A stretch of DNA of 64,000 bases, from NCBI GenBank assembly GCA_027923505.1, contig BROI01000002.1, positions 744,001-808,000 of the forward strand. Reading direction: 5' to 3'. Positions within the stretch are counted from its first letter, which is position 1, and every line of letters begins with the position of its first letter. Below, in pieces: positions 12,301 to 58,651 of the stretch. This DNA comes from Mayamaea pseudoterrestris. Its lineage: Eukaryota; Bacillariophyta; Bacillariophyceae; Sellaphorales; Sellaphoraceae. The translations under genes and the position numbers were made by a program. The notes beneath the pieces were generated by a model. That model was not told where the DNA came from, did no database searches, and saw only the letters and a program-made list of their open reading frames with translations.

Positions 12301-13695
12301 AGCACGGGTGCACCAGGCGGAGGCGCACAAGCAACCTCCGCTCCTGTAAGTCAGCCGGTTTCACTGTTTTCACCAACCTTGGCACCTCATTTGGGGCTTT
12401 CGCCAAGCCAGGCACCCATCGTGCAAATGACGAGTGCACCTGCCGGTGGCGCACAAGCAACCTCCGCGCCCACCAAAATACCGAGCAATACCCAATCATT
12501 CGGGCCGACACTTACTCCTAGTCGCTTACCAACAATAACACCAGCAATTACACAATCGCCTGTTTCAGTTCCTACCATGCTACCGTCCAACGCTCCAATC
12601 AAGGTGGTCACGGAGGTGCCAGCAGGATCGCCGACAAATACACCTGTTACAATTTTTACAGCAATACCCACAAGCGCTCCAATCGAAAAGGTTACAAGTG
12701 TGCCATCAAAGTCGCCGACAACCACACCTGTTTCAGCTCCTTTAAATTTGCCTTCCAACACTCCACCCAAAATGCCTGCTTTGTCCCCAACTATGTCACC
12801 AGTTTCAGCGCCTACATCTTGTGATGTACTACCTCAGTGCTACGATGGTAGTCAATATTTCCCGAATCGAATTTTATACTGTAAGAAAAATGGAAGGACT
12901 GACTGCATAACACCCGAGTCATTGAGTGGTCAAGATAATGGTGGGAAATGCGGCGACTGTAGCACCGCTGGGTCCTTGCTACGTGTTGCGCATGGTGAGA
13001 CAGATGAAGCTACATCTGCACCTGTTAGAAAGTCTGGTCGAAAGCCTACTCCTAAGCCTACTCGGAAGCCTGTTAGAGCTACACGAAGGCCGACTCGTCG
13101 TCCTAGACCAACAAACAAACCGACGCGACGGCCAAAGCCAATTGCCAAACCTGTTGCCTTTATCCGGACGACGCCAGCTGACGAGCCAGTCCGACGTGCA
13201 AGTCTTACGGACAAACCTACTCGCGCTCCCAAACCTACCGGTACCAACGAATCGACCAGACAAAAAGTGACGGGGCGTCCGACGGATCCGCCTAAAACGG
13301 ATCGCCCAACGAGGCCACCAAGAACCGAGAGACCAACAGACCCACCCAAGACGGATCGCCCAACAAGAGCACCAAGGACTGATAAACAAACAGACCCACC
13401 TAAGACGGATCGCCCAACAAGAGCACCAAGGACAGATAAACCGACAGACCCACCTAAGACGGATCGCCCAACAAGAGCACCAAGGACCGATAAACCGACA
13501 GATCCACCTAAGACGGATCGCCCAACGAGACCACCAAGGACCGATAAACCGACAGATCCACCTGAGACGGATCGCCCTACGAGACCACCAAGGACTGATA
13601 AACCGACAGATCCGCCCAAGACGGATCAGCCCACGAAACCACCGAAGGCGGAAGATGAGGTTATAGCTGATGAAACCGGCAAAGGGCTGAAGTGA
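9316..13695 (+). CDS. Giant PT-rich single-pass membrane protein (paralog B), with an in-frame TAG
   Basis: Three exons: 9316-9581, 9752-10327 and 10422-13695 (1,371 codon positions). The N-terminal 250 residues are acidic and resemble the visible start of paralog A (VAVAGGIQAMRAVYSRL, ARWAQMQQ..NQS). A long Ala/Val helix follows (nt 10495-10610), probably the only membrane span, then about 750 residues of Thr/Pro/Ser/Ala repeats, a six-cysteine module (nt 12818-12965, starting TSCDVLPQC) and a basic/proline tail repeat TDPPKTDRPTRAPRTDKP. TAG at 9912-9914 falls inside otherwise open, acidic, native-looking sequence (NIDDGDL before, FDETPDLINDTNY after). The donors here are strong GTAAGT, so a hidden intron with a weak donor is possible but not obvious. 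Unlike paralog A, the region up to the cysteine module has no introns. A surface or wall role is inference. Confidence 0.75.
11880..12480 (+). repeat. 132-base (44-residue) coding repeats in paralog B
   Basis: The unit QPVSLFSPTLAPQ, PSQAP, QSTGAPGGGAQATSAP recurs. Its start (TTTTCACCAACCTTGGC or similar) lies at about 11882, 12014 and 12146, a 132-base step, with further shortened or altered units to about 12480. Confidence 0.8.
13280..13645 (+). repeat. 54-base repeats coding the TDPPKTDRPTRAPRTDKP tail
   Basis: About seven tandem 54-base units, each 18 codons, form the C terminus of paralog B. They differ at few positions (RAP or RPP, KTD or ETD). The steps GATCGCCCAAC at about 13354, 13408 and 13462 show the period directly. 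Confidence 0.85.
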
Positions 13696-31600: not shown

Positions 31601-34093
31601 ATGGAAACGATTGCGGCTGCTGCTCCGACGGAAGAAATCGTGAGCGATCCTTCGCCGGAAGAAGCGGATATGAAGGCACCAACGATCACAGATCCTGCCC
31701 CTATCAATGGAGACGAACAAGTAGATTCTGCTGCTGCTGAAGATGAACAAACTCCTGCGGAAACTCGTACCGTCGAGGAGCAAACTGGGTTGCCGCCAGG
31801 CGCGACCTATATTTCGGCCCCTCCAGCGCTTACTGCAGAAAATGATGACGACGACGACGGAGAAGATCTCTTTGGAGACTCGGATGAAGACGACGACGAT
31901 GATGACGATGAAGAAGAAACTAGTTCTGCTGCCCCAATCGAAACTGTTGCATCCTCGCCTCCTCCTGTTGCCAACGGCGGTAATGACGCAGCTGCTGCTG
32001 CAACTTCTCCTCCGCCAGACAGCAGCAACAACCCCATTGACGAAATCGTATCTGAACCAAAATTGGCTTCCATTCCCCGCAAGCAGCCATCAACTCCAAC
32101 GTCAGCTGCTTCACCTCCAGCAGCAGCAAAGACTTTCTCCTCACCACCATCCACTACTTCGACTGCCGCTTCGTTTGGTCTACCCTCCACGACCAAGATT
32201 CCCAAGTCCGTCACGCCCCAAATTCTCAACGGCAAGCTACTCGACTTACTCAAAACGCTTCCGGTGCACATGATGAACGACGCCCTTCAAGAGTACGACG
32301 ACGCCGTGGACGTGAAGGGCTACTCGTCCATTCGCAACCACGGCGCCTACTTGCATGGCGTGGTCAAGCGCTACGTGAGTGTCCAGGAGCGAGCGAATAG
32401 TGAAGGCTCCAACGTGTTGCCCATGGGCGAGTCGCTCACGCCGACGATCAACGAGCGACTGGAGCAATTGGTTTCGTCCGGATTTTGTACGCGGGATGAA
32501 ATGAACGATAAAGTCAAGAGTAAAATTCGCATGCTTTCGGAAAAGGATGCGCTCTTTGCTTTGGATGAGTTGCGTACGGTGGATCGGGCGTCCATTCGCA
32601 ACTTTGGTTCCTACTTTATGGGTAAGTATGAGAAGAGATGGATCGATGGATGATGGGAAAATTGTCCTTACAAGAAATGTTTTGGTGTCTCACTCTCATG
32701 CTATTCTTTTACAGGTATTCTCAATCGGTACATGCGTGGAGATGTTACTTCCAAGGCTCGTCCTTCACACCATGAACAACCGTCCGAGCGCCACCAGCAG
32801 CGCGGTGGCAGAACCAAGGATCGTCAGTATCGTGATTCAGCGTCCAATTTTCATCCTCCTGATCGCGATCGGTCTAGGGATCGTTACGGCAATGAGGGCA
32901 TGCGTCAGCCAAATCCATATGGACCTCCTCAGCCGCAAGCTTACGACAATCGTCAAAATGCGTATACGCAGCCGCCACAGCCTCCTCAGTGGCAGCAGAT
33001 GAATCAGCAGGCGCCGCCAAACAATCGTTCCATGATGCCTGGAAATCAGCAGGGACACATGTCTGGGAATTACGATAATAGTTACTTGCCACCTCTTCCA
33101 GCACAAGCGCCACCGCAGCAGCAGCAGCCGTATCAGATGCAAATGAACAGCAACTCGAGTAACAATCCCATGTTCAACTCGCAAGGATATCCCCCGCAGA
33201 ACTTGCAGCAGCAGCAACCTCCTTCCTCGTTCGATAATAATCAAACCTACTATCAGAACCCGCAATCAATGATTGGACAGTCGCAGCAACAGCATCCGCC
33301 ATCTCAGTACGGCATGCAGCAGATGCCCCCGCAGATGAACCAGCCACCGGCTGTATACTCGCCGCCGCAACAACAACCGCAAACGGGATATGGTGCTAGT
33401 GGCCCAATGATGAACAGCCACCAGGTTGGAGGCGGCCCCGGAATTGTGCCTGGTTCGTACGGCCCATCGTCTGGTGCCGGGCCTCATGGATTACCCGGGT
33501 CATATAATCCTCCTACTGGTAGTAATTGGCAGCAACAGCCGCCGCCGCAGCTCGATATTATGGGTCTTGCGGACAAGGCTGCGTCAGCTGTTCAGGCGTT
33601 ATCCTCGCAAAGGGGAATGCCGCAGCAGCACCATCAGCATCACCAACCTCCACCAATGATGAGCAATTATGGAGCGCCATCTATGAGCCAACAGCCAATG
33701 CCAGGACAGTATCAACCGTACGGCGGCGGCGCACCTAGTAGTGGCTTGCCTCCCATGGCGCATCCAGGCATGCAACAGCCATCTTACCAAACTGCAACGG
33801 GTCCGCCACAAATGCAGCAGCAGGGCAACGATGCTTTTAAACGACGCACTCAAGCGAGGATAGAAGATCTACCTCCGTCGGTTCAGTACGCTGTGCAGAA
33901 CATCCAGGCCACTGGAGCCGTCGATGGTCCACTTGATCCGGGCATTCTGGGCATGATCTTCGATCTTCCAGAAGATCTGGCCCTAGGTGCGATCCAGCGC
34001 TTTTCTGCTATTGATCGGAGCGCCATGCGAAGCAAGACGGCGTATTTGGCTGGACTCTTGCGACGCGAACTGGAGAAGATTAATCGACGTTAA
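31601..34093 (+). CDS. Q/P-rich protein with three hnRNP-Q-acidic-like modules
   Basis: Two exons (31601-32621, 32715-34093) give 799 residues. The first 200 residues are acidic and Ser/Thr/Pro-rich (an EDDDDDG tract). Two helical modules follow: [20 protein letters not shown] ending [15 protein letters not shown], and [20 protein letters not shown] ending FGSYFMGILNRYM, split by the intron. A third is at the C terminus: [13 protein letters not shown] ending [16 protein letters not shown]. The pattern, L..LP...A...L..F........IRN..AYL.G...R, matches the acidic (NURR) domain of hnRNP Q/R and related proteins. Between modules 2 and 3 lie about 350 residues rich in Gln, Pro, Asn, Gly and Met, a prion-like linker. 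No RRM is present. An RNP-granule scaffold role is inference. Confidence 0.8.
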
Positions 34094-34191: not shown

Positions 34192-37100
34192 TTATTTACT
34201 CATGAGCTGTCGAACGCCTTCCCAGTCGCCAGGTGGTATACGATTCCGTCGTTGCATATATTGGATGAGGCATCTACAAGCGCCATCTCCGAATGAATTT
34301 CGAACGCGTATGACCTCTTCATCGTCGCAAGTCTCATCAAAGAGCTGATCCTCCATATTTTCGTTATCAAGGTCGATGTAGCCTTCTTCGAGTACGGTTC
34401 GTATCATAATATTGTCGGCTTCCCTTAGTATCTTGCAAGCAGATTCCCACTTGCCCTCTAAGTAGAGATCGACCCCTTCTTTAAAGGTATGCATGAAGTC
34501 GGCGGTGACGTGTTGTCGCATGGCCTTGAGGTCCTGATCAGTTTCCCATATGGCACTTGAGTACAGTTCAGCGTCAAGGTCAGCAAGCTCAGGCGGCCGC
34601 TCAAAGAGGAAAAAGTTGACGCCTTCGTATCGCGCATCATATGTAAAGATCCGCTGTGGTACACTGCTGCCTTTAACAAAAACGGTATCAAGATGCCGCA
34701 GTTTCTGCCGCGCAGCTCGCGACATCAATTCTTCAACAGCTTGGCTCATGAGAAGTGTGACACCATATTGCTTGGAGGCGCTCATCATTCTAGACGCCAT
34801 GTTGACGTGAGGCGAAAGATATGTGGCGTCAATTTTGTGTTCGCTTCCCACGGCTCCTTCAACTGCCCAACCAGCATCCATGCCGTAGATAGCACTGGCG
34901 AAGTATGCGCCAACACCACCACCGAGGCGAAAATCCTGACGCCAACTCTGCAACTTCCGATCGCGATGAATCCCAGCAAAAGACTTTAACAAACCCAACA
35001 AAGCTCTATCTGTAAAAGCCTGGATGCCTGGTAAGCTTGCCAGAGCAACCTGACCCTCCGTTGCGTCCGTTGCATTTCGCTTCTTCATCTGCTTCATTTT
35101 AGCTTTCATACTGCGTGTGACTTTGGTGCTGGTGTTAAAAACGACATCTGTCGCCCTTTTCTTCTTGTCATGTACATCGGTGAAGTCTCCGATACGGAAA
35201 ACCATTAAGAACGCGCCACCCAAGTTTTTGTTGCATTGTCCAGAATCACCAAGAGCCCACCTGTATACCTCCTCGTGCACCACCTTTGCAACATCATTTA
35301 TAAGGATTAATACATCATTACCAAGATCCAAAACTCGCGAGAAATCGTTTACAGCGACAAAACCAAACAGAGCATAGACGCGTTTGCCCGGAACAGTAGG
35401 ATTAAAAACCACGGTGGCTCCAGCCTCCGTGCGAGCAAGGTTAGCGGAAATAATTCCAGCACCAGCGACTCCCCAACACTTTCTCAAAAGATCGGCAATC
35501 TTGGAAATTGCAGTTATGAGCTGCTCAGTTTCATAATTTCCAAGCTGGTCACCGCCTTCGGGTATCAATGCGTCAGCATGCGCGAGTGGATTCTCAGCAT
35601 CTGATGAGGGACAGGTGACATGAGCTCCGCAACAAAGAGATAGACGTACAAAAGCAACTAACATATACCACTTACATCTCACGACAATTTTCAGCATGCG
35701 CCTCAGCGGTTCCAAAACAAGCCGTGCAATGTCGCCTCGCATTACTGCGAGCGAGGATAATGTTAAAACGAGCATGCATACCATCAGTATGAAAAGAGTC
35801 AACATGCTATCACATGGAAATGCATATTTTGTCAGATGTGCGATTCGTAATAGCGCAATAGCGCATCATGTTGATAGTTACTTACGTGAAAGAAATTACA
35901 TCGCCTTGTTCCATAAAGGCAGTCACTTGGAAGTCTGCCGTGCCCAACCCAAAATCAACAGCTATGTCCTCATTTACTTGCGTGTATTCGACGATACCCT
36001 CAACGCGAGCTCCGAGTCTTTCGGCAAAATATTCTGATGAAGCTAGGGAGGGATCAAGTGGATTGAAAGTGGCCCAAAATTCACATTGGCTCACCTTGGA
36101 CAAAGACTCAGGACATGCGGTTATGACTCCCGAAGCCTCTTGCCAGTCACATCGAACAGGCAGAACTTGCGCCCAGAGAAGCAAAGGAATATCATACGTG
36201 CCACCTTGTTCGTCAATCTTATAGTCAGTTGTCGCTTGAGCTGTGCTCTCTACCCATGAAAAAACAGCGTTGCGCAGATAATCGCATTCATCGGTAGAGT
36301 TGGAAAGCAAATTATTCTGCGCGAGTAACTTAACCAGCTTATCGGAAGATTGATTGGATGATCCTAATGTATAAATAACAGGATAGACAGCGACCATCAA
36401 CATACTAGCACAGAAACCAAGTGAGTGAGTGTTTAAACCATGCAAGGAATGTCACGGAAAAACTTACAGTAGCGCCAGAGATCGATGAGTGTTGACGGCC
36501 ACAAGTGATGTCCCTATGTTTGCGGCCTTCTTGAGCTGTCGATCATGGGCCGATGTGGGCCCTGTGGGTGCATCCTTGTCAGTTTCGTCCTGTCAAATAC
36601 GAACGAGATATTTTTTAGTAAGTACGGAGCAGTAGTAGACGAAAGTCAGACAATTGTTGCAGAGTGTAGAGCGTACCTCCAATAGAGTTGGAGATTTTCT
36701 AAACCAACTTCGAGCTGCTGTGCCCGACTCTGGTCCCCCCACAAATATAGTTTGAAGAAGAGCTAACAAGAAATAAAGTCGTAAGTACGACCAGTTCCTT
36801 TCGCTAGAAATACACGAACATCGCGCAGCGTACTTACTCGTTCCTTGTCCATCTAAGTCTTCGTCAAACATGCTTCGAATCCACATTTGCTTCCAATGAC
36901 GAATAAGTGCAAACATTCGCAAAAACATCAATCCAATGACAAACCGTCCTTGTGTCATTTTGACTCTCGTGGACCCTGTGACTGCCAACATTGCGGCATG
37001 CTGCATACTGAAGGCGACGCTTCCAGGTGCATCGCATCTATCGCGCAAAATACATGGCATTTCAGGAATGAATAGGATCAATGCGAGCGATTCACAAAAT

Positions 37101-38852
37101 AGATGAAAACTGTCAACGTGTCGTGCAATAGATGGCTGGAAGGCTCGCTCTGATTTAACAGCTTGATTGTAGTCCCAAGGTCGCGTCAGATACTCAAAGA
37201 AAAGTTCCACGACGAGAACGCACCATACAACTCTGAAAATATTTCGAGTCGGTGAGAAATCACAAACGGTGTTCGATGACGCAACGAGCAACTTACAGTT
37301 CCAATACTGCGGATGCGCGATCCTTCGAAGGCGGTAGGAACGCGTAGGTAAACGGCTCAATCATGAGATATATAAAGCTACAGAAAACCAGCAGATTAAT
37401 GCACGTCAACTTGATTCGGCAGCCATAGCCACGTTCGCCCGTCAAAACGTGTGTTGCAACCGTCTTGGCCGATTTTCTCGTGTCAACAAACCATGGAATG
37501 AGATTGTACACAACGAATCTATCCCACCATTCCATAACAAGTTCTAGCCTTGACGCCATTCGTATATCCTTCTTCAGCTCCTCATCAGTATTAGCAACCG
37601 CCCGCGTCGTTCGCTTGGCAGCTTCCTCGGCCGCTTCCAAACCCGCCGATCCACCAGCGCACGGCTCCATCCATTGCGGATCAGCTCGTTGCTCGGTCCC
37701 AGTGTCGTGGCGCCGCACCGTGTAGTATCGCTCATCCTCATCAAAGTGAACCGTTACAACCGTGCAAAGCACAAAATTGTACGGCCCATTTCGCTCAGGC
37801 TCCGTTTTGCCTTCTCGAGCAGAATATCCATACATGTTGACTGGATCAATTGAAAAATCCATGGGGTCATCCTCATGGTTTGTAATGTTCAGCAGCGTGA
37901 GCATGCAAAGAACCGCTTCGTCTTGTCCAAACTGAGTCGTCCGCAAGGACGGAACCGACGCGGACGCTGCCACGACCGAGGCAGCCGCTAGTACATTGTC
38001 CCAGTCTGCCGACGATCCATCCCCAAGTCGATGGACGGCGTCGGACATGTTGAATCGACTGCTTCCGCCACTGCTGCTGTTTGTAAGGTTGGACATGCGA
38101 CTGTGACGATGCTGCTGTATTGAAAAACGAGTCGACTGCGTAATGGATTGATGGCGTCTTCTGCGATGGTTCATACTACCCATGCTAGAGTTTTGATCAT
38201 CCGAAAGTGCGCTGAGTTGCGACTGAATCGACGGTCGAAGGTAAACGTGCGGTCGACGCCCGCCCCGACGAGCACTGGTGCGAATTTCATCCGGCGAACC
38301 GACAGTGGGACGCCGGGTAAGCGGCGGTGTCATTAATAGTTCACTACTTGATCCTCCCGGAAGAGGTGCCGACTTGATTGTCCGCCCTCCAGAACTTCCT
38401 GAAAGGCGAATGGAATTGTCTCGTCGCGATAAGAATTTGCCCAATCGTTGGATTGACTTTGTCGACGAGCTTGGCGTGCTGGGAGTCATTGGCGACAAGC
38501 CACTCACGTCATCAGCTGCATAGCGCAAATGAGCGCTGCTTCCTATTTCTTCAGGAAGAGATTCCGTTCCTTCGTAAAGAGGTTGCAGTGAGTTTGATGA
38601 AGCAAGCATGTCATCCATGGAGCCTTCCGTATAGGATGCAATTGATTCGGATCCTTCATGATGTTCGTAACCATAAACGTCTTCCTCGTAGCCATAATCG
38701 GGAACAGTCTCTCCTTTATCATATCCTTGCTCCATGTCCTCATAGTCTTCGTCAAGTTCGTCCTCGCCCTCGCTGTCAAGCTCCGCCATTCTCTGAGCGG
38801 CTTCGGCCATTTCATCGAGGAGCGACCCTCGCTTGCTGCTTCTCTTTGGCAT
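34192..38852 (-). CDS. Voltage-sensor-like membrane protein fused to a class III (pseudo)cyclase
   Basis: Seven exons on the minus strand: 38852-37297, 37232-36838, 36762-36677, 36589-36468, 36404-35886, 35806-35676 and 35600-34192 (1,405 residues; all phases agree). Order: a 470-residue acidic, Ser-rich cytosolic N terminus; four hydrophobic helices about 480-640, the fourth being Arg-bearing (FVIGLMFLRMFALIRHWKQM); a fifth helix ending LMLMVAVYPVIYTL; a 150-residue ectodomain with several cysteines; a sixth helix (MLTLFILMVCMLVLTLSS), then a linker DIARLVLEPLRRML; a class III cyclase fold (YALFGFVAVNDFSRV, KNLGGAFLMVF, WAVEGAVGSEHKIDATYL, SPHVNMASRM). Where active cyclases have Asp (FADI or CDIR; GD), this has Ala and Gly, so both metal-binding residues appear lost while the Asn and Arg of VN.ASR remain. 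The earlier frame up to 39008 is probably 5' UTR. It may act as a regulatory partner of an active cyclase. Confidence 0.85.
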
Positions 38853-42330: not shown

Positions 42331-45300
42331 ATGAAGGATAATTGCTCTAATGAATCTTGCGAGTCGCTGTTGAAAAAGCAAAATCAAAGGGCTTTGCATG
42401 AGCACCAGGGGCAGCTTACACACGCAACTCGTTCAGACGCGCCAAGGCAAACCATGCCACTTAACGAGGACGCCTTGCAACTTGACGACGAATGCATACA
42501 CCCCATATATCAGCCAAGACGGATACGTCGTTTTGCTGCCTGTGGAGGATTTCTGGGAGGCTGTATAGGAATGTTGTTGCTGACCTTGCTCAAGAATCAC
42601 TTTGGGCTTGATGAGACTGCGCTGCAATCCTTGTTACACACGCACTGCAGAGCTTCTCCCAGAGTAAGAGGAAACAGACTTTTATCATCGTATAAAACAG
42701 ATGAATATTTAAAGCCATATTCGAAAACAAGAGCAGACAAGAGCATTCAGATGCATTCCTCTTCAAGCGGCCGACGAAATCTCGTTGAATCAGCAACTGA
42801 CAATCATGGACCTTCCCTCGTCATTGCCGGCAAAATGACCGTCGTGGATGCTCCCTGCAACATTGCCCAATTGAATTTGAAGAATAACGAGTGGAGCCTT
42901 AGTGAACGTATTCAGCTCTCCCTCTACAATTCCTACTCGGGCGGCGAAGTTTACAGCCTGTTGGCCAATCATACGACGAGCAGTATAACAAGCGTCGCGG
43001 ATGAGGAGGAAGCCAGCAGCAGCAGTAAAAGCAGCAATAATTTACATTCTATCATGCAGCGAAGATCCATTCAGCCAATTACGACTGGTTCCGGCGAACT
43101 CATCGTGGTAGGTGCATTTGACACTACGTATCGAAACAGCCAAGTCACATACTGCTCCGTCGGCATGTGGGACGGATCACAACTATCCAAGGTTGGTGAA
43201 GGCTTGTGCAACTCTGCCTTGAGCAAGGGCATGAAGATTACCTGCGCGGCGCTCGCTGGCCCTCACGATGTTTACATTGCCGGTTCCTTTCAAACACAAG
43301 TTTGGAGCGGCGACGAGCATGCCTTTGTCCGTATCTACAATATTGCTCATTTCAACGCCTTGGAGCAAATGTGGTCGCCGCTGAACGTTGGTCAAATCAC
43401 TTGCTCGTGGTGCACCGTGACGGTGCTGGCGCTGGCCTGGGACTCCAAGCGCCGACAGTTGCATGTTGCTGGAAAGTTTAATGCGATTGACGGACGCAAC
43501 GTGCCGGCTGGGTTGGCCGTTTACGACTTTGATTCCGGTCACTTGGTGGCGCATCCTGGTGGCGGATTGACCATGCGCAATATCACACAGGACGGTGTAG
43601 GGACGGCCTTGCAAATGGATGAGGAGAGTGGTGTGCTGTACGTCATGGGCTCGTTCGAACGCTTGACGGCGACGAACGAGATTTGCCTAGGTTTAGCAGC
43701 GTATGAGATTGAAGCGGATCGCTGGACATGCTTGGCGGATGCGGCTCATACTGTCCTGCCAACAGGTGGTGGCAACATGCTATTGACGCCGTATGGTCTC
43801 ATGGTGGCAGGTAAAATTACGAACAAGACGACTTGGCCTGATTCCGATCGGCCGTACACCATTGCGCTACTAAAAACTACGCTCAAGACTCGTAACGAAA
43901 AGACGGAGGGGAAGCATGACGAAGTCATTGTCGAGGAGAAGCAGTATCATGCGTTCAACTGGTCGTGGCTTCCTGGATTCAAAGGTCATGACGAACCATT
44001 GCATGCCTTATCAAATGGTTTTGCTACCTACGAAGGCACTGTATTCATTGCTGGCGACAACTTTGTAGCAAAATGGTCGTATCAACCAAAGTCACAGTCG
44101 GAGGACGATAAAAATCGCGGCTTACTGGACACGTCGCGCTACAGTAGTCGCCCGCAGGAAATTGTGCCAGTCACGGAAGTTCTATCCGGCGAACAAGTGC
44201 GAGGCGCGATCATGGCAATTTCGCAAATGATGCCCATGTCAGAAGACGGAAATGGAGGACCCGGACAAGTCAACATTACCATTATTGTTTATTGCGTTGC
44301 TGCTGGCTGTGTACTTGGCGTAATTGGCGCTATTCTTTGCAACAAAAATATTACTACTGCTCTTTTCCCGTTCTTGCAAAAAGACAAAGACTTCAAGGGT
44401 TTTACTCTCGATACCCTCACATATAGTGCGATTGAAAACTCAAGTATCATGGAGGCTTATAACAAGGCCATGAGAACACGCTACGTTGAGCAGCCCAACC
44501 TGCTCACCATAATCGACCCACAAGAAATATTCTTGCAGCGAATCATTGGAGAAGGAACGTTTGGACGCGTTTGGAGTGCAAAATGGAGAAGCGCTAGTGT
44601 TGCTGTTAAGGAATTTGTATTTGCCCAGGCAGCTGTCGCAGGTCGATCGTCTATGCAAAATGAAATAGTGGAAGAGATTATTGGAGAAGCTGGAATGATG
44701 GCGATTTTGCGCCACCCTAATGTCCTACAGCTCTTTGGCTGCTCGCTCACAGCACAAGCTATCTGGATTGTCAGTGAGCTTTGTTCGCTGGGTAGTCTCC
44801 GGCAGGTACTTGACGACAACTCGCAGGTGCTACCGGTTGAAAGAAGGCTCAGTCTTGCCTTGCAGATAGCGGAGGGAATGACATATCTGCACAATCAAGA
44901 ACCGCCCATTATACATCGAGATCTCAAGAGTCATAATATTTTTATTCATGAGACATTTACGGATGCTGAGGATGCGAGTACATCCTCCGGCAAGAACAAG
45001 AACCGACGACACGCCGGGGATCCGTACGACAAGCTAGACACCCATTCGACTCTACTTGCAAAGATTGGTGATTGGGGCTCTGCTCGTGCGGCGCTGTCTG
45101 GTTCGAGAACGATGACTCATGGAATGGGCACAGCATGTTGGCTCGGTGAGTTTGATTGTGTGTGATTTCCAGGTCGTCTTTGTGGCATTTCGATGTTATT
45201 TTTCTAAACCGCATGCTCTCCTTTTATGCATAGCTCCTGAAGTAATTAAGCATGCGCGCTCTTCAAAGTTCAGTGATGTATACGGCTATGGCATTATTCT

Positions 45301-49594: not shown

Positions 49595-49896
49595 GAGTCG
49601 AAACAATTAAGGTTCAGGCCCTGCCAGTGTCCGTTTGTTTCGGTTGATCCTCATGGCTGGATATCTGTTAATATCCAGTATCTGTGAATACTCAAGTTAC
49701 TTAAGCTACAGAAGCAAGCCGACGTTACAAACACGTCGGCAACGGTCCCCTTAAAGTAGCGGTAACAACTAAATCAAATCATTCTATTGCAAAGTACACG
49801 CAATCGTCTCGTTCCCCTCTTCTTACCAAGTTAGCAGACTGATCATCTCCTACTTGACCAAGTACTCAAGGTAACTCGACACAAGTTGCATTGATA
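49595..49896 (+). repeat. LTR, outer left copy
   Basis: 302 bases from GAGTCGAAAC to TTGCATTGATA. It is preceded by CGCC, which recurs after the right LTR. Confidence 0.88.
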
Positions 49897-49965
49897 GGTT
49901 ATTCGTCCCAATCACGCGCCCTACTGCCGCTACAAAATCTCGTTCTAGACCCCGAGAAAAGCATC

Positions 49966-51559
49966 ATGTCTACCGACAACAACGACACCGACACGGAGCA
50001 GTACTTCGACACTCCTCCTCCTAAACCCCGAGCTGGCTCTCCAACATCTGCTGCAGCTGATCTTGCCACGCTCATCACAGCTCTCAAGTCGATTCCATCC
50101 GACCAGCTTAAGATCCTCCTCCAAGCCGTCCAACCGACCGACGCGTCGTCGCCTGGAGACTCTCCTCCCAAGGATGAAACCTCTATTCCAACGGCCAACG
50201 AATATGTTTCCCTCATTGGTGGTTACCTCGATGCCGAGCGCAAGATTGCCTTCTGTGGAGGCAAACCGAATCTTGACTACACGCTCCCCCAAGTGCTCGA
50301 GGACGACCCGCTCGCCAAGCACATCCCCAAGACGCCAGCTTGTCACCGCGATTTGACAATGAAGCGTGCTGCTCAGGATTACGCCATTCGCATTGCTTTC
50401 AAGCCTTCCATTGGCAAGTTAGAGAAGGCGATGCCGATGTTCGCCTGGGGCGAGCTCATCCTTCGTGCGCTTGAAACGACTGGCGGCGATTCCGTCACTT
50501 ACTCGCTGTCGAGAGACAACAAGACGCGCGTTAGTGTTTGTACCAACTTTGATGTACTCACGCTCGCTCACGTTATCGCTCAAAGCAAGAAGGATGTCGC
50601 CAATTGGCGTCCAATGGACCACGAGAACAGCTCGATGGCGATCGAGTTCGTGTTGAATCACTTGAGCACGGCGATCCAACAGATTGTCGAGCCTCGCCGA
50701 AAGGAAGATGATACCTTCGCTATCTTCTTTATGCGCATCGCTCAAGCCAACGCTGATCTTTCATACGAAGCTGCCGACAAGATGAAGGCAGAGCTCCGTG
50801 CTTACAAATTGACCGACGTTTCCTACCAAGACGTTCACCATTTTGGTGCCAAGTTCCTCAACACTGAGCGCCAGCTTCACAATGGCAAACGCTGGGACCA
50901 CTCCCTTGGATTAATCTTCATTAGAGAGCTCTCCAAGTGTCCTTCGGAAGTTATGCGTGTAACGTTCATTGGCATTGGAGAACGGTACGACACTGCTCTT
51001 CGTGAAATCAATCCCCTCTCCTACGACGAGCAGCGCTCTCGCATGTTCAGTTTAAACGTTCATATCTCCCAGTTGGTTGAACGCGCTGACGATCTTTACG
51101 CTCAGATCAAAGCAGTTGATGGAGGATGGCCTCCGCTTGTCAATATTGTCGACAAGAAAGCGCCCGATATCAACTCGTTGACGAAACTCAGCCACGCCGA
51201 GCAAGCTGCTCTCATCTCAAGCGGCCAAGTTGACATCAACAATCTCGTTCAATCCAAGGTCAAAGAGCTCCGCACAAAGGACAAGAAGCAGTTGGAGGCT
51301 TACAAGAAGCGATTCGCCAAGCAGTCGCCAACTGGCGACACCAAGGCTCCAAACACGACTCCTTCTGGCGATTCCACCAAGACCGCCGAAAAGCGAGCTG
51401 AACGCCCTTTACCAGCATGGCGCACAAAGCCGCCTGCTGCCAACAATAAAGACGAAGTCAAGGAGGTTGGCAAGTACAAGTTCCAGTGGTGCGACAAGTG
51501 CTCCAAGTGGGTGTGGAATCATACGTCTGCAACGCACAAATCCAAGTCGCCCGAGGCAA
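49966..51559 (+). CDS. Copia gag, partial duplicate copy
   Basis: A 5' copy of the element's gag beginning MSTDNNDTD, matching the downstream gag copy throughout. It is cut by the internal LTR and is therefore a fragment of an older or recombined copy. Confidence 0.85.
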
Positions 51560-51861
51560 GAGTCGAAACAATTAAGGTTCAGGCCCTGCCAGTGTCCGTT
51601 TGTTTCGGTTGATCCTCATGGCTGGATATCTGTTAATATCCAGTATCTGTGAATACTCAAGTTACTTAAGCTACAGAAGCAAGCCGACGTTACAAACACG
51701 TCGGCAACGGTCCCCTTAAAGTAGCGGTAACAACTAAATCAAATCATTCTATTGCAAAGTACACGCAATCGTCTCGTTCCCCTCTTCTTACCAAGTTAGC
51801 AGACTGATCATCTCCTACTTGACCAAGTACTCAAGGTAACTCGACACAAGTTGCATTGATA
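51560..51861 (+). repeat. LTR, internal copy
   Basis: 302 bases, same ends as the outer copies. It lies inside gag sequence, as expected if one element had entered another or two copies had recombined. Confidence 0.88.
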
Positions 51862-51930
51862 GGTTATTCGTCCCAATCACGCGCCCTACTGCCGCTACAA
51901 AATCTCGTTCTAGACCCCGAGAAAAGCATC

Positions 51931-53604
51931 ATGTCTACCGACAACAACGACACCGACACGGAGCAGTACTTCGACACTCCTCCTCCTAAACCCCGAGCTG
52001 GCTCTCCAACATCTGCTGCAGCTGATCTTGCCACGCTCATCACAGCTCTCAAGTCGATTCCATCCGACCAGCTTAAGATCCTCCTCCAAGCCGTCCAACC
52101 GACCGACGCGTCGTCGCCTGGAGACTCTCCTCCCAAGGATGAAACCTCTATTCCAACGGCCAACGAATATGTTTCCCTCATTGGTGGTTACCTCGATGCC
52201 GAGCGCAAGATTGCCTTCTGTGGAGGCAAACCGAATCTTGACTACACGCTCCCCCAAGTGCTCGAGGACGACCCGCTCGCCAAGCACATCCCCAAGACGC
52301 CAGCTTGTCACCGCGATTTGACAATGAAGCGTGCTGCTCAGGATTACGCCATTCGCATTGCTTTCAAGCCTTCCATTGGCAAGTTAGAGAAGGCGATGCC
52401 GATGTTCGCCTGGGGCGAGCTCATCCTTCGTGCGCTTGAAACGACTGGCGGCGATTCCGTCACTTACTCGCTGTCGAGAGACAACAAGACGCGCGTTAGT
52501 GTTTGTACCAACTTTGATGTACTCACGCTCGCTCACGTTATCGCTCAAAGCAAGAAGGATGTCGCCAATTGGCGTCCAATGGACCACGAGAACAGCTCGA
52601 TGGCGATCGAGTTCGTGTTGAATCACTTGAGCACGGCGATCCAACAGATTGTCGAGCCTCGCCGAAAGGAAGATGATACCTTCGCTATCTTCTTTATGCG
52701 CATCGCTCAAGCCAACGCTGATCTTTCATACGAAGCTGCCGACAAGATGAAGGCAGAGCTCCGTGCTTACAAATTGACCGACGTTTCCTACCAAGACGTT
52801 CACCATTTTGGTGCCAAGTTCCTCAACACTGAGCGCCAGCTTCACAATGGCAAACGCTGGGACCACTCCCTTGGATTAATCTTCATTAGAGAGCTCTCCA
52901 AGTGTCCTTCGGAAGTTATGCGTGTAACGTTCATTGGCATTGGAGAACGGTACGACACTGCTCTTCGTGAAATCAATCCCCTCTCCTACGACGAGCAGCG
53001 CTCTCGCATGTTCAGTTTAAACGTTCATATCTCCCAGTTGGTTGAACGCGCTGACGATCTTTACGCTCAGATCAAAGCAGTTGATGGAGGATGGCCTCCG
53101 CTTGTCAATATTGTCGACAAGAAAGCGCCCGATATCAACTCGTTGACGAAACTCAGCCACGCCGAGCAAGCTGCTCTCATCTCAAGCGGCCAAGTTGACA
53201 TCAACAATCTCGTTCAATCCAAGGTCAAAGAGCTCCGCACAAAGGACAAGAAGCAGTTGGAGGCTTACAAGAAGCGATTCGCCAAGCAGTCGCCAACTGG
53301 CGACACCAAGGCTCCAAACACGACTCCTTCTGGCGATTCCACCAAGACCGCCGAAAAGCGAGCTGAACGCCCTTTACCAGCATGGCGCACAAAGCCGCCT
53401 GCTGCCAACAATAAAGACGAAGTCAAGGAGGTTGGCAAGTACAAGTTCCAGTGGTGCGACAAGTGCTCCAAGTGGGTGTGGAATCATACGTCTGCAACGC
53501 ACAAATCCAAGTCGCCCGAGGCAAACAACTTCATTCTTGCCGACTCCGCCAACGTGTTTGAAGAATTCACCGACTACGCTCCCTTCGCTGACAGTCAGGA
53601 ATGA
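51931..53604 (+). CDS. Copia gag
   Basis: Capsid-type protein of about 557 residues. Its C-terminal quarter carries a CxxC...H...H zinc-binding motif (WCDKCSKWVWNHTSATH) after a long helical domain. The gag start is taken at MSTDNND. Confidence 0.85.
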   Translation: MSTDNNDTDTEQYFDTPPPKPRAGSPTSAAADLATLITALKSIPSDQLKILLQAVQPTDASSPGDSPPKDETSIPTANEYVSLIGGYLDAERKIAFCGGKPNLDYTLPQVLEDDPLAKHIPKTPACHRDLTMKRAAQDYAIRIAFKPSIGKLEKAMPMFAWGELILRALETTGGDSVTYSLSRDNKTRVSVCTNFDVLTLAHVIAQSKKDVANWRPMDHENSSMAIEFVLNHLSTAIQQIVEPRRKEDDTFAIFFMRIAQANADLSYEAADKMKAELRAYKLTDVSYQDVHHFGAKFLNTERQLHNGKRWDHSLGLIFIRELSKCPSEVMRVTFIGIGERYDTALREINPLSYDEQRSRMFSLNVHISQLVERADDLYAQIKAVDGGWPPLVNIVDKKAPDINSLTKLSHAEQAALISSGQVDINNLVQSKVKELRTKDKKQLEAYKKRFAKQSPTGDTKAPNTTPSGDSTKTAEKRAERPLPAWRTKPPAANNKDEVKEVGKYKFQWCDKCSKWVWNHTSATHKSKSPEANNFILADSANVFEEFTDYAPFADSQE

Positions 53605-53700
53605 CTTGAATGCGGAAGGACGCCGCCTCTTCTTCTCTTTGTTCAAGCGTTTTGTTTCAAGACTGCCTTCGCCCGGTTCATCCTCAAGCCCGTCGCCGCC

Positions 53701-56700
53701 ATGCTCCTCTTGGCTGCACTGAGTATGCTTCCTACCGTCCTACCGGCCGTCCTTGAATCAGTTTGCGCTTGCGCATTGAGTGGACTTGCGCTCAATCAAT
53801 GGTTCTGGTCTTCGACTCTCGCCAACGCCTCTTCGTTTGCTTGCAATGCGCTCAGTCTTTCGCGCGCTGCGCTCGCTCTTCCAACGTTTCTTCGCTGGTT
53901 TTGGTTTGAGTTACTTACGACTACGCTCGAGAGGGAGATGATGTTGCTGTGGATGACAGTTATCCTCGAAGCATTAGCTCTTTCCTATCACCTTTCTCCG
54001 AGTCGCCCCCAACCAACTAGAGACAAGCTCCGTCAAAAACAAAAACACTACGACAAACGCAAGAACTCTACTGACGAACGTCAACTTTCCGTCCAATCAA
54101 AACGTCGCATTCGCCAACAGAAACGATTGAAAAGAACGCTCCGTGTCCCACTCATCTATAGCTATCACCGTTCCTATCCAACAAGATTGCGCAGCGACGG
54201 CATCTATCGTCAAAGAGTCCATTGCCCTCGTTTCGAGACCCTTCCAGACGCCAAGACTGTTCCCATTGAAGTCATTAAGGGGTACAATGGCTTGTTTACG
54301 ACCCTCGTCGAGTCCAAGGCATGCCGATGGTTCGACAATCCCATCTCCCAATTTAATTCCCTCGTCGAGTACCCCAGCCTCATGGACTACCTTGGCGCGC
54401 TCGCTCCTCTCGAGTTTAACAACGTTACCTTCCAAGCAGACTCTACAGTCAATGACTTTGCATTCTCTCCAAGCAATGCTGCTCGATCCTCCACGTTCGA
54501 AATCATTCACGACAGCGGCGCTTCTGCAACCGTCGCCAATCACTTGGATGACTTCGTCCCTGGTACTTACCGCAAAAGCACAAAGAAGATCATTGCAAAA
54601 GGACTCGCATCTGGATTGCAAGTGGTCGGCCATGGCATAATTGACTGGACTCTTGATGGCAACGACGGCAAGCCGCTACGAGTCCGTTGCCAAGCTCTCT
54701 ACATTCCCGACAGTCCGCGCAAGTTACTGTGCCCTCAACAGTACACGCGATACCACAAGCTACACGATCGCGAGGCGAATTTAACGTTTGCTATTAATGG
54801 AGAAGGATTCTGGTACTTTGATCTACACAAACAAGGACGCCCGTCCCTTCTTCACGGCTCGCTCGATCCAGTCACCAACCTACCGACTTCTACAGCAATT
54901 GCAACTCAAGATAGCCCTGAAACACTTCATGCTGAGTTTAATGCATGTGTAACAGACGCTCGAAACGCCAACCTGTCGCCCGCTCAAAAGCTCCTTCTTC
55001 AATGGCATTTCAAGTGCGGCCACGCCAGCTTCCGCAGCATTCAAAACCTTCTACGCTCTGGTCGCCTCGCTACAAGCGATGAGATGCGCAAGCTCCATAA
55101 AGCAGCAGCCTCCTGTGAGATCCCGCGGTGCGCTGCTTGCGAATTTGGAAAGGCAAAACGTCGACCCGCGCCCGGAACGAGTCGTCAACCAACGCCTCGA
55201 GCCGATGGATCGCTCAAGCAAGGAAAGCTTCGACCAGGACAACAAGTCTCCGTTGATCACTACATCTGCAGTCAAAAGGGACGCCTCTATACGTCTCGCG
55301 GCAAAACGTCGACCGACTCAATGTTCAGCGGCGGCGCGCTCTTTGTTGACCACGCAAGTGGATACGTCTTCGTCGACCATCAAGTTGTTATGAACACTCA
55401 TGAAACTCTTCGCTCCAAGTGGAACTTTGAAAAGGTTGCAAGGGATTGCGGCGTTTCAATTGAAAGCTACTTGTCTGATAACGCTGCGTGTTTCACCAGT
55501 CACGAGTACACCGAGCATCTTTCCAAATTCAAGCAGACGACTGTCTTTGCAGGCGTCGGCGCCCATCATCAAAACGGAATAGCAGAACGAAACATTCAAA
55601 CCATTATGAATATGGCAAGAACGATGCTTATCCATGCTAACATGCACTGGACTGACGTTGATGACATGTCGCTCTGGCCGATGGCCGTCGACTACGCAGT
55701 TTACATCTTCAATCGCATGCCAAACGTCGCTACTGGCCAAGCTCCCATTGACATCTTTACTGGTACCATCTGGGCAAGTCACAAGTTCCATCACCTCCAC
55801 GTTTTTGGATCGCCCGCCTACGTTCTTGATCCTCGCATGCAAGACGGCAAGTCCATTCCTCGTTGGAAAGTGCGCTCACGCCGCGGGATCTTTGTCGGCT
55901 TCTCCAGCAAGCACTCAGCTACCGTTCCACTTGTCCTCAATCTGAATACATTAACAATCAGTCCTCAGTATCACGTTACGCATGACGATTGGTTTACTAC
56001 AGTTGACGCTCTTCCTGATTCGCCTCCCAATTTTACGGACGACAGATGGACGAGTCTCTTTGCGACAAGCAAGTACATCTATCCGTTCGACGACGATGAC
56101 CCCCTTCCTGCTCTCAATCCTGAGTGGGAGGACAACTTTGATGCCTCAGCTGCTCGCCAAGACGCTATCCATGCAGCACAGACTCCTTCTACTGCTCCAG
56201 TTTTACCTGCTCCCGCCGCTCCGCCAGCGGTTGCTCCAGTTCCTTCCAATGATTCTCCGCCCGTCACAGACGCTCCGCCTACGAATCAGAGGGAGACAAG
56301 GCCTCCTGAAATTCATTCGCCTCACGAAACTACAGAACCACAGCTTCAGAGGGAGCAGAGGGAGCAATTAGACTACATTGATGGCAATCCTTTGCGCTCG
56401 TCCGCACCTACACCGCGTGTCGCAGCCGATGTCACAGTCAATCCCAGTCCACCAAACGCATCAAACGAGTCCACGATCCTGACGACAGCTCCCACGCTCG
56501 CACAACAACCACAACAACAAGCAAGTGATCCTCCTTTACGACGCTCTGCACGTTTACGTGATCGACCACCTGAGCCAGTCATTACTCGAGCTCAGAGACT
56601 CCGTCATGCTCGCGACGAAATGATTGAAACCAATATGCTGTTAGCAGAGCATGCGCACGCGGAATACCCTTACTCAATTGGTTTAACGCAAGTGCTACTC

Positions 56701-58293
56701 GCCTCGACGAACGATCCCGACACACTCCGCTACGATGAAGCGATGCGCGCTGATGACTCTGAAGAGTTCAGGAAAGCCGCAGGAATAGAGATCAAGTCGC
56801 TCGAAGACCATGGAACATGGGTTGTCATACCAAGGACCAAGGTTCCTCAAGGAAAGCAAATCATCCCCGGCACATGGACCTTTCGCCGCAAGCGAACGCC
56901 CAGCGGTGAGCTTAAGAAACACAAAGCTCGCTTCTGCGTTCGAGGAGACCTACAGAAGGACGTATTCGAAACGTTTGCACCAGTCGTTCAATGGAGCACC
57001 GTTCGTGTCCTCATGGTATTCGCCTTGACGTTCGGCTACAAAACCAAGTGCATTGATTTCACCAACGCTTTCGTGCAAGCAGAACTAAAGGATCCAATCT
57101 ACATTCAATTCCCTCGCGGCTTTCAACACAAAGACGGTCATCAATCAAGCGATTACTGTTTAAAGTTGCTCAAGTCGTGCTACGGAACGAAGATCGCCCC
57201 AAAGCTCTTCTACGAACACTTACGCGACCGACTCGTCGAGCTCGGGTTCACTCAAAGCTTCTTCGATCCCTGTCTCTTCTACCGCAATGGACAAATCATC
57301 GCCTGTTACGTTGACGATTGCATCTGCGTCGCCCGTACCGACAAGGAGCTACAGACCATCATCGACGACCTTCGCTCCAAGTTCACGCTCACCGAAGAAG
57401 GCGATCTCAGTCAATATCTTGGCATTGATATAAAGCGCTCTGGCAAGTCTTTCACGCTCACTCAAACGGGTCTGATTGACAGTATCATTCAAGCTACTGG
57501 AATGGAGGCTGCTAACGGAGTCTTCACGCCCGCCAACGACACGCTCGGCAAGAACGCCGATTTACCTGATCATCAAGAGAGCTGGAGCTACAACTCGCTA
57601 ATCGGCAAGCTTCTTTATCTCGCTGGTAACTCGCGTCCTGATATTGCTTTCGCTGTCAATCAATGCGCAAGATTCAATCACTGTCCTAAAAAGCCACACT
57701 TTGACGCCGTTAAACGCATCGTCCGCTATCTCATCAAGACTCGTGAACAAGGACTCATCATGACGCCCGAAGGCAACCTCACGGTTGACTGTTACGTTGA
57801 TGCCGACTTTGCTGGTTTATATGGAAAGGAAGACGGTCAAGACCCAGTGTGCGCTCAATCCCGTACCGGATACCTCATTATGCTCGGTGGCTGCCCCGTC
57901 TTTTGGCAAAGCAAGCTACAAACCGAAATTGCTCTATCTACAATGGAATCCGAGTACGTTGCTCTTTCTTCAAGTCTTCGCCAAGTCATTCCTATCCAAG
58001 CAATCGTCAAGGAAATGGGAAACAAAATGAAGCAACGCATTCAAGTAAACGCGCGCTCCTACTGCACCGTTTACGAAGACAACGCAGGCTGCCTCGCGCT
58101 CGCCAATGCCCCTCATCTAACGCCTCGCTCTCGCCATTACGCTACTAAGTATCACCACTTTAAGCACCACGTAAAGCAGGGCACGATCAAAGTCGTTAAG
58201 ATTGATACCAAGGAGCAACGAGCCGATATCTTTACAAAGGCGCTGCCCCAAGTCACATTCGAGCACCTCCGCCGTCTCCTTATGGGATGGTAA
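53701..58293 (+). CDS. Copia pol polyprotein (protease, integrase, reverse transcriptase, RNase H)
   Basis: A long frame of about 1,530 residues. In order: an N-terminal hydrophobic/basic section; aspartic protease near residue 265; zinc-binding and catalytic integrase domains about 430 to 700; a Pro/Ser-rich linker; reverse transcriptase about 1040 to 1280; RNase H about 1360 to 1500. This order (integrase before reverse transcriptase) defines the Copia superfamily. Confidence 0.9.
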   Translation: MLLLAALSMLPTVLPAVLESVCACALSGLALNQWFWSSTLANASSFACNALSLSRAALALPTFLRWFWFELLTTTLEREMMLLWMTVILEALALSYHLSPSRPQPTRDKLRQKQKHYDKRKNSTDERQLSVQSKRRIRQQKRLKRTLRVPLIYSYHRSYPTRLRSDGIYRQRVHCPRFETLPDAKTVPIEVIKGYNGLFTTLVESKACRWFDNPISQFNSLVEYPSLMDYLGALAPLEFNNVTFQADSTVNDFAFSPSNAARSSTFEIIHDSGASATVANHLDDFVPGTYRKSTKKIIAKGLASGLQVVGHGIIDWTLDGNDGKPLRVRCQALYIPDSPRKLLCPQQYTRYHKLHDREANLTFAINGEGFWYFDLHKQGRPSLLHGSLDPVTNLPTSTAIATQDSPETLHAEFNACVTDARNANLSPAQKLLLQWHFKCGHASFRSIQNLLRSGRLATSDEMRKLHKAAASCEIPRCAACEFGKAKRRPAPGTSRQPTPRADGSLKQGKLRPGQQVSVDHYICSQKGRLYTSRGKTSTDSMFSGGALFVDHASGYVFVDHQVVMNTHETLRSKWNFEKVARDCGVSIESYLSDNAACFTSHEYTEHLSKFKQTTVFAGVGAHHQNGIAERNIQTIMNMARTMLIHANMHWTDVDDMSLWPMAVDYAVYIFNRMPNVATGQAPIDIFTGTIWASHKFHHLHVFGSPAYVLDPRMQDGKSIPRWKVRSRRGIFVGFSSKHSATVPLVLNLNTLTISPQYHVTHDDWFTTVDALPDSPPNFTDDRWTSLFATSKYIYPFDDDDPLPALNPEWEDNFDASAARQDAIHAAQTPSTAPVLPAPAAPPAVAPVPSNDSPPVTDAPPTNQRETRPPEIHSPHETTEPQLQREQREQLDYIDGNPLRSSAPTPRVAADVTVNPSPPNASNESTILTTAPTLAQQPQQQASDPPLRRSARLRDRPPEPVITRAQRLRHARDEMIETNMLLAEHAHAEYPYSIGLTQVLLASTNDPDTLRYDEAMRADDSEEFRKAAGIEIKSLEDHGTWVVIPRTKVPQGKQIIPGTWTFRRKRTPSGELKKHKARFCVRGDLQKDVFETFAPVVQWSTVRVLMVFALTFGYKTKCIDFTNAFVQAELKDPIYIQFPRGFQHKDGHQSSDYCLKLLKSCYGTKIAPKLFYEHLRDRLVELGFTQSFFDPCLFYRNGQIIACYVDDCICVARTDKELQTIIDDLRSKFTLTEEGDLSQYLGIDIKRSGKSFTLTQTGLIDSIIQATGMEAANGVFTPANDTLGKNADLPDHQESWSYNSLIGKLLYLAGNSRPDIAFAVNQCARFNHCPKKPHFDAVKRIVRYLIKTREQGLIMTPEGNLTVDCYVDADFAGLYGKEDGQDPVCAQSRTGYLIMLGGCPVFWQSKLQTEIALSTMESEYVALSSSLRQVIPIQAIVKEMGNKMKQRIQVNARSYCTVYEDNAGCLALANAPHLTPRSRHYATKYHHFKHHVKQGTIKVVKIDTKEQRADIFTKALPQVTFEHLRRLLMGW

Positions 58294-58349
58294 GTTGCTC
58301 ATCTTCTCTGTTATTTGTCTCTATGTCTATAACATCGATCCAAGAGGGA

Positions 58350-58651
58350 GAGTCGAAACAATTAAGGTTCAGGCCCTGCCAGTGTCCGTTTGTTTCGGTT
58401 GATCCTCATGGCTGGATATCTGTTAATATCCAGTATCTGTGAATACTCAAGTTACTTAAGCTACAAAAGCAAGCCGACGTTACAAACACGTCGGCAACGG
58501 TCCCCTTAAAGTAGCGGTAACAACTAAATCAAATCATTCTATTGCAAAGTACACGCAATCGTCTCGTTCCCCTCTTCTTACCAAGTTAGCAGACTGATCA
58601 TCTCCTACTTGACCAAGTACTCAAGGTAACTCGACACAAGTTGCATTGATA
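58350..58651 (+). repeat. LTR, outer right copy
   Basis: 302 bases, preceded by a purine run (AAGAGGGA) that fits a polypurine tract, and followed by CGCCG, matching the left flank. Confidence 0.88.

Follow-up and report, generated by a model that had tools for sequence, protein, structure and literature searches.

A pore-less, voltage-sensor-like membrane protein of Mayamaea pseudoterrestris carries a class III cyclase-like domain that has lost both metal-binding aspartates

In mammalian transmembrane adenylyl cyclases, C1 and C2 lie in one chain. Fusions of an ion channel to an adenylyl cyclase are said to have been described by Weber et al. in 2004 for Paramecium, Tetrahymena, and Plasmodium, and the Paramecium enzyme reportedly comes with a K+ channel pore and is regulated by membrane potential. 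The first-pass annotation of the locus described here had referred to such fusions as known in alveolates, but stramenopiles also have a published pore-less family: work on Phytophthora (2025) reports, in its section on this family, proteins of stramenopiles and alveolates that combine a voltage sensor with a cyclase and lack pore homology (PMC12223298). Two such paralogs of Phytophthora parasitica, PPTG_13136 and PPTG_13761, are given there as 38.75% identical and as both residing in zoospore membranes (PMC12223298). As to the division of labor within the mammalian enzymes, the metal-binding Asp residues come from C1, those for substrate and transition state come from C2, and homodimers of C2, devoid of metal residues, are inactive, according to the relevant passages of PMC4174876. 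In the NeoR/RGC rhodopsin-cyclases of chytrids, two membrane-sensor cyclases pair as an obligate heterodimer. No residue with a known role in catalysis is missing from RGC1 and RGC2, and the passages at hand ascribe the obligate pairing to other parts of the proteins (PMC8815786). The role of the membrane domains in transmembrane adenylyl cyclases is called an open question in PMC12414865.

The window analyzed here—the whole stretch of 64,000 nucleotides—has a eukaryotic gene structure. On its minus strand, seven exons splice into 1,405 codons plus a stop codon (Table 1), and this splice model agrees exactly with the coordinates and the protein length given in the first pass. Each of the six introns, 63–87 nt long, runs from GT to AG, and the final codon is the only in-frame stop of the spliced chain. 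A codon-usage model built from ten further open reading frames in the window preferred the gene frame in six of the seven exons; in exon 6 (131 nt), another frame outscored it (0.19 vs 0.07 bits per codon).

Table 1 Features of the gene within the window (positions are those of the window).
Feature	Position	Strand	Evidence
Whole gene, 7 exons, 1,405 aa	34192..38852	-	six GT..AG introns, no internal stop
Exons 1 to 7	38852-37297, 37232-36838, 36762-36677, 36589-36468, 36404-35886, 35806-35676, 35600-34192	-	splice model
N-terminal segment, residues ~310-396 (DPVNMYGY...YYTVRRHDTGTEQRADPQWMEP)	37665..37925	-	Pfam: 0 families
S1-like helix, residues 475-505	37338..37430	-	hydropathy
S2-like helix, residues 513-538, interrupted by intron 1	37175..37316	-	hydropathy
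S3-like helix, residues 554-583	37040..37129	-	hydropathy
S4-like helix, residues 611-638	36875..36958	-	hydropathy, i+3 charge register
TM5, residues 713-735, interrupted by intron 4	36359..36490	-	hydropathy
Putative extracellular loop, residues 736-882, carrying four Cys and two N-glycosylation sequons	35918..36358	-	
TM6, residues 886-916, interrupted by intron 5	35737..35908	-	hydropathy
Class III cyclase-like domain, residues 1011-1256 (analyst-set boundaries)	34642..35379	-	
Position of metal Asp 1 (Ala1019)	35353..35355	-	Asp in 79/79 bacterial cyclases
Position of metal Asp 2 (Gly1065)	35215..35217	-	Asp in 79/79 bacterial cyclases
Base-contact Thr1196 through transition-state Asn1203 and Arg1207	34789..34824	-	alignment to 79 bacterial cyclases
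C-terminal extension, residues 1257-1405	34195..34641	-	no Pfam family above cut-off

Several other loci of the window have features of their own. A Copia-type element (49595–58649) contains three 100% identical 300-nt repeats (starting at 49595, 51560, and 58350) and two copies of a gag-like frame, as if two elements had been joined via an LTR; it is probably a recent insertion. Two adjacent genes (31601–32653 and 32732–34093) each match the hnRNP Q acidic domain, at E 8.8e-13 and, below threshold, 7.6e-05. A single frame at 5517–6932 combines an mTERF match with subsequent ankyrin repeats, and its signal-peptide-like start ends near SEAF, a feature of ochrophyte proteins that are targeted to plastids. 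Two neighboring proteins begin in a signal-peptide-like manner with a SEAF or SDAF motif, which points to a photosynthetic stramenopile as the source. A protein kinase is encoded at 42331–45165, its first part showing a sub-threshold match to the Rax2 beta-propeller. Finally, two long Pro/Ser/Thr repeat proteins (327–5133 and 10396–13695) have N-termini that look alike by eye, as does a Cys-bearing stretch in the frames 4207–5133 and 10396–13695.

The first ~310 residues of the 1,405-residue protein, by eye rich in Ser and charged residues, yielded no domain, and the segment ahead of S1 (Table 1) has a domain-like look without any Pfam match. Further along the chain, hydropathy peaks near residues 480, 513, 563, 611, 716, and 889. 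The S4-like peak reaches 1.39 and barely exceeds the 1.33 found at residues 287 and 1026, neither of which we took as a membrane helix. Within this helix, a single i+3 register holds R615, R624, R630, and K633, with I618, M621, and A627 intervening, and H631 and R638 fall outside it; judged by these residues, S4 may at best be a thinned voltage sensor. With E values of up to 10 allowed, Pfam channel profiles, Ion_trans included, returned no family from a 309-aa fragment that covers the helices, a null result that is subject to the HMMER filters, which discard weak matches. The 147-residue loop between TM5 and TM6 has its cysteines at positions 760, 805, 817, and 827 and its sequons at 737 and 755, and the linker PLRRMLKIV joins TM6 to the cyclase-like domain. 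Sequence inspection and the Pfam search, which gave no channel match, revealed neither a pore helix nor a selectivity filter. FGLG at residues 871–874, just ahead of TM6, was considered as a K+ filter and rejected, as it follows a charged stretch and has no pore helix; the predicted fold of the loop (exon 5) was likewise discarded at a mean pLDDT of 35.2. Of the first-pass annotation, the pair of helices flanking a Cys-bearing loop is upheld, and so is its statement that no pore is evident. As to its voltage-sensor module, the missing Pfam channel match and the thinned S4 leave the S1–S4-like helices hinting weakly at voltage sensing or voltage dependence.

The last part of the chain resembles the class III cyclase fold, both by sequence comparison and in a predicted structure. 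The Pfam profile Guanylate_cyc matched below threshold (16.3 bits against a cut-off of 21.9; 18.6 for the last exon alone). A tblastn search of plasmids retrieved a Rhizobium cyclase (E 2e-8; residues 187–267 of the domain piece), and a PDB sequence search returned 13 sequences up to E 0.1, with CyaB of Pseudomonas aeruginosa as the best (E 0.0052). When a profile was built from 17 bacterial cyclases, residues 1175–1256 matched at E 1.1e-20 (4.8e-18 over the 1,540 window segments), a value that flatters the second half of the domain because similarity to the query, mostly within that half, had decided the ranking of the comparator loci; residues 1033–1107 scored just 0.5 bits, with KyiGD paired to KNLGG. 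An AlphaFold2 model of the domain (271 residues, 11-row alignment) attained a mean pLDDT of 62.4 and a pTM of 0.61. Foldseek aligned it to 127 PDB chains at E ≤0.001 (best OaPAC, 6.6e-10; CyaC 1wc0_A with a TM of 0.74 by target length), matches that denote compatibility more than discovery since the model input included bacterial cyclases. Together, the tblastn, CyaB, and Foldseek results bear out the fold that had been assigned from the letters. The domain further contains a VNxASR transition-state motif and, relative to the bacterial enzymes, an insertion of ~50 residues just past the second metal position.

In an E-INS-i alignment, the two metal-binding Asp residues that are present in all 79 bacterial cyclases fall on Ala1019 and Gly1065. 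By contrast, Lys1061, Asn1203, and Arg1207 (each 79/79) as well as Lys1246 (75/79) are kept, and Thr1196 occupies the second base-contact position; Ser is found there in 60 of the comparators and Thr in 19. A second comparator set, which overlaps the first, has the two Asp, the Lys, the Asn, and the Arg in 27 of 27 sequences; bacterial cyclases were the only comparators for the catalytic positions. Were two of the seven catalytic positions lost at random, the chance of hitting exactly the metal pair would be 1 in 21. Following the residue roles known for class III cyclases, we take Lys1061 to contact the base, Asn1203 and Arg1207 to act on the transition state, and Lys1246 to contact the phosphate. 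Part of these assignments derives from passages of PMC4174876. Both substitutions and the retained Asn–Arg pair are thus as the first-pass annotation had them. By alignment, the domain lacks the two metal Asp residues of a catalytic class III cyclase and has the residues of a C2-like domain, that is, those for base, transition state, and phosphate.

Two alternatives can be weighed at this point. A catalytic cyclase might hold its metals in another way, for instance through Asp1022, which the translation places three residues past Ala1019, or through other nearby acidic residues, and the intact substrate residues would suit such an enzyme; we nevertheless consider this very improbable, as each of the 79 enzymes in the comparison has both Asp and the fold model is too uncertain near the second site (pLDDT <50, model residues 72–75) to reveal a substitute. 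Alternatively, this may be a lineage-specific copy that is drifting towards loss of function, as the sub-threshold Pfam cyclase score and the lack of an Ion_trans match could indicate. We regard that as unlikely, too: the seven exons are intact, six of them with coding-like codon use, the splice sites are canonical, and among the seven tallied catalytic positions the losses are limited to the metal pair. The intact 1,405-codon frame likewise argues against decay.

The placement of the second Asp is aligner-dependent, a difficulty that arises from the ~50-residue insertion following that site. Among the five stored alignments, A1, A2, A4, and A5 (with 7, 7, 17, and 10 rows, respectively) place Asp 1 on Ala1019, and the three rows of A3 place it on a Thr; the counterpart of Asp 2 is Gly1065 in A1, A2, and A5 but a Gln in the other two. 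E-INS-i put the pair on Ala1019 and Gly1065 in 17/17, 79/79, and 27/27 rows; default and L-INS-i MAFFT (17 rows) left a gap at Gly1065, and one further L-INS-i run set Asp 1 and Asp 2 on Arg and Gln, as seen by eye. An Asp of this chain at either metal site—the outcome set beforehand as speaking against the loss—occurred in none of the alignments checked, the five stored ones included. A5 had been chosen from random subsets (in 35 of 60, the aligned fractions added up to 1 or more) for aligning both Asp sites and was then fed into the fold prediction, so the resulting model cannot serve as separate proof where the second metal site is concerned. The plasmid comparators derive from 203 records at E up to 10, of which eight were taken and seven used in A1 and A2. 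For the genome comparators, 263 of 383 pattern stretches were confirmed, the best 80 of the 263 were kept, and 79 were used once L064 (96 aa) had been left out as short; 17 comparators remained at <80% identity. Most of these 80 come from Rhizobium, and their ranking followed similarity to the query, mainly to its second half. An apparent faster divergence of the metal half (20% vs 36% identity, 17 loci) was consequently withdrawn as an effect of locus selection: relative to the plasmid cyclases L001, L002, L007, and L008, the metal and substrate halves show about equal identities (31.7/30.0, 26.7/28.3, 25.0/30.8, and 30.0/28.7%, respectively), and we dropped the divergence argument.

As in mammalian C2, the metal Asp pair is gone and the substrate and transition-state residues are kept, and we therefore read the protein, with a probability of roughly 0.45, as a C2-like half that would need a metal-bearing (C1-like) partner from another gene. 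The proposal that it is the regulatory half of a heterodimer is modified accordingly: half of a heterodimer is still the best reading, but the kept base Lys, Thr, Asn, Arg, and phosphate Lys suggest a substrate-holding half rather than a mere regulator. A six-helix membrane receptor would then carry a cytosolic C2-like cyclase domain that might hold the purine and stabilize the transition state and would be unable to bind the catalytic metals. On its own or paired with itself, such a chain would be inactive, and one working active site could form at the interface with the C1-like partner. Movement of S4 and/or a ligand at the Cys-bearing loop might be relayed through TM6 and the PLRRMLKIV linker to the output of the dimer. 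We count the occurrence of both P. parasitica paralogs in zoospore membranes in favor of a heterodimer. A further-reaching and rather doubtful version is a two-gene asymmetric cyclase in which a metal chain and a substrate/transition-state chain would each have their own membrane sensor, such that output would need two membrane inputs (voltage and/or ligand) to agree.

A second cyclase was not found in the window: with E values of up to 1 admitted, this gene alone among 1,540 six-frame segments gave a match to the cyclase profile. This lack of a visible partner, together with the loss of both metal residues and the insertion directly past the second metal position, would fit a pseudo-enzyme whose fold never provides an active site and instead serves as a module for dimerization or for sensing nucleotides, perhaps as an inhibitor of, or a scaffold for, other cyclases. 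We deem this explanation possible, albeit on the unlikely side: the other five tallied catalytic positions are retained, as are their surroundings (42% identity to the Rhizobium cyclase over 81 residues), which a mere scaffold would not need. Dropping the divergence argument lowered our estimate for the C2-like half from 0.50 to the present value and, slightly, that for the two-gene cyclase, and raised those for the pseudo-enzyme and the drifting copy. Searches of sequence collections gave no match in phages (tblastn), one pattern stretch and no relative in viral contigs with the last-exon protein, no hit to either of two degenerate patterns in viral contigs, and none to the first of these patterns in prokaryote genomes; across the viral, plasmid, and prokaryotic collections, no eukaryotic relative was found.

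How, then, does the putative C2-like half compare with described systems? With PPTG_13136 and PPTG_13761 it shares a pore-less voltage-sensor-like bundle followed by a class III cyclase domain, as characterized in the family section of PMC12223298; a helix bundle and then a cyclase in one chain, with no pore helix, is the arrangement that defines this family and is found here. Cyclase domain lengths are close as well (239 and 242 residues in the two PPTG proteins, 246 here with analyst-set boundaries), and membership of the family would follow from domain order and domain length. A match to the PPTG_13136 antibody peptide, for which the published letters were compared, was rejected as proof of family, since its best ungapped score of 31 was reached by 40 of 500 shuffles. 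There are differences, too: the PPTG proteins match both Ion_trans and Guanylate_cyc in Pfam, whereas our protein has no Ion_trans match and a sub-threshold Guanylate_cyc match, and its helices begin at about residue 475 rather than at residue 81 (family section of PMC12223298). Both metal Asp residues are lost here; metal residues are undiscussed in that family section, and the term 'active site' is absent from the main text of the paper (PMC12223298). Given that this work already describes the fusion and the missing pore, the architecture is known, and what sets this protein apart is the selective loss of the metal site within it. Judged by titles and the starts of abstracts, there was no other metal-less member among the literature matches listed, which is not proof of absence.

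A protein in which the metal site alone is lost and a channel-like membrane module is kept would be a case in which nature has set sensing apart from catalysis, and it would offer a test of whether voltage-sensor/cyclase proteins act as heterodimers. Synthesis of cAMP or cGMP by single members of this family should accordingly not be assumed. The Paramecium, Tetrahymena, and Plasmodium fusions resemble our protein in joining a channel-like membrane part to a class III cyclase; unlike in the Paramecium enzyme, a pore helix is not seen and the metal residues are lost. Mammalian C2, as treated in the relevant passages of PMC4174876, likewise lacks the metal Asp residues and has the substrate and transition-state residues, but the present chain would be a lone half with a membrane module of its own. 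A working precedent for a heterodimeric membrane cyclase is NeoR/RGC, with the difference that RGC1 and RGC2, in the portions of PMC8815786 that describe them, retain their catalytic residues.
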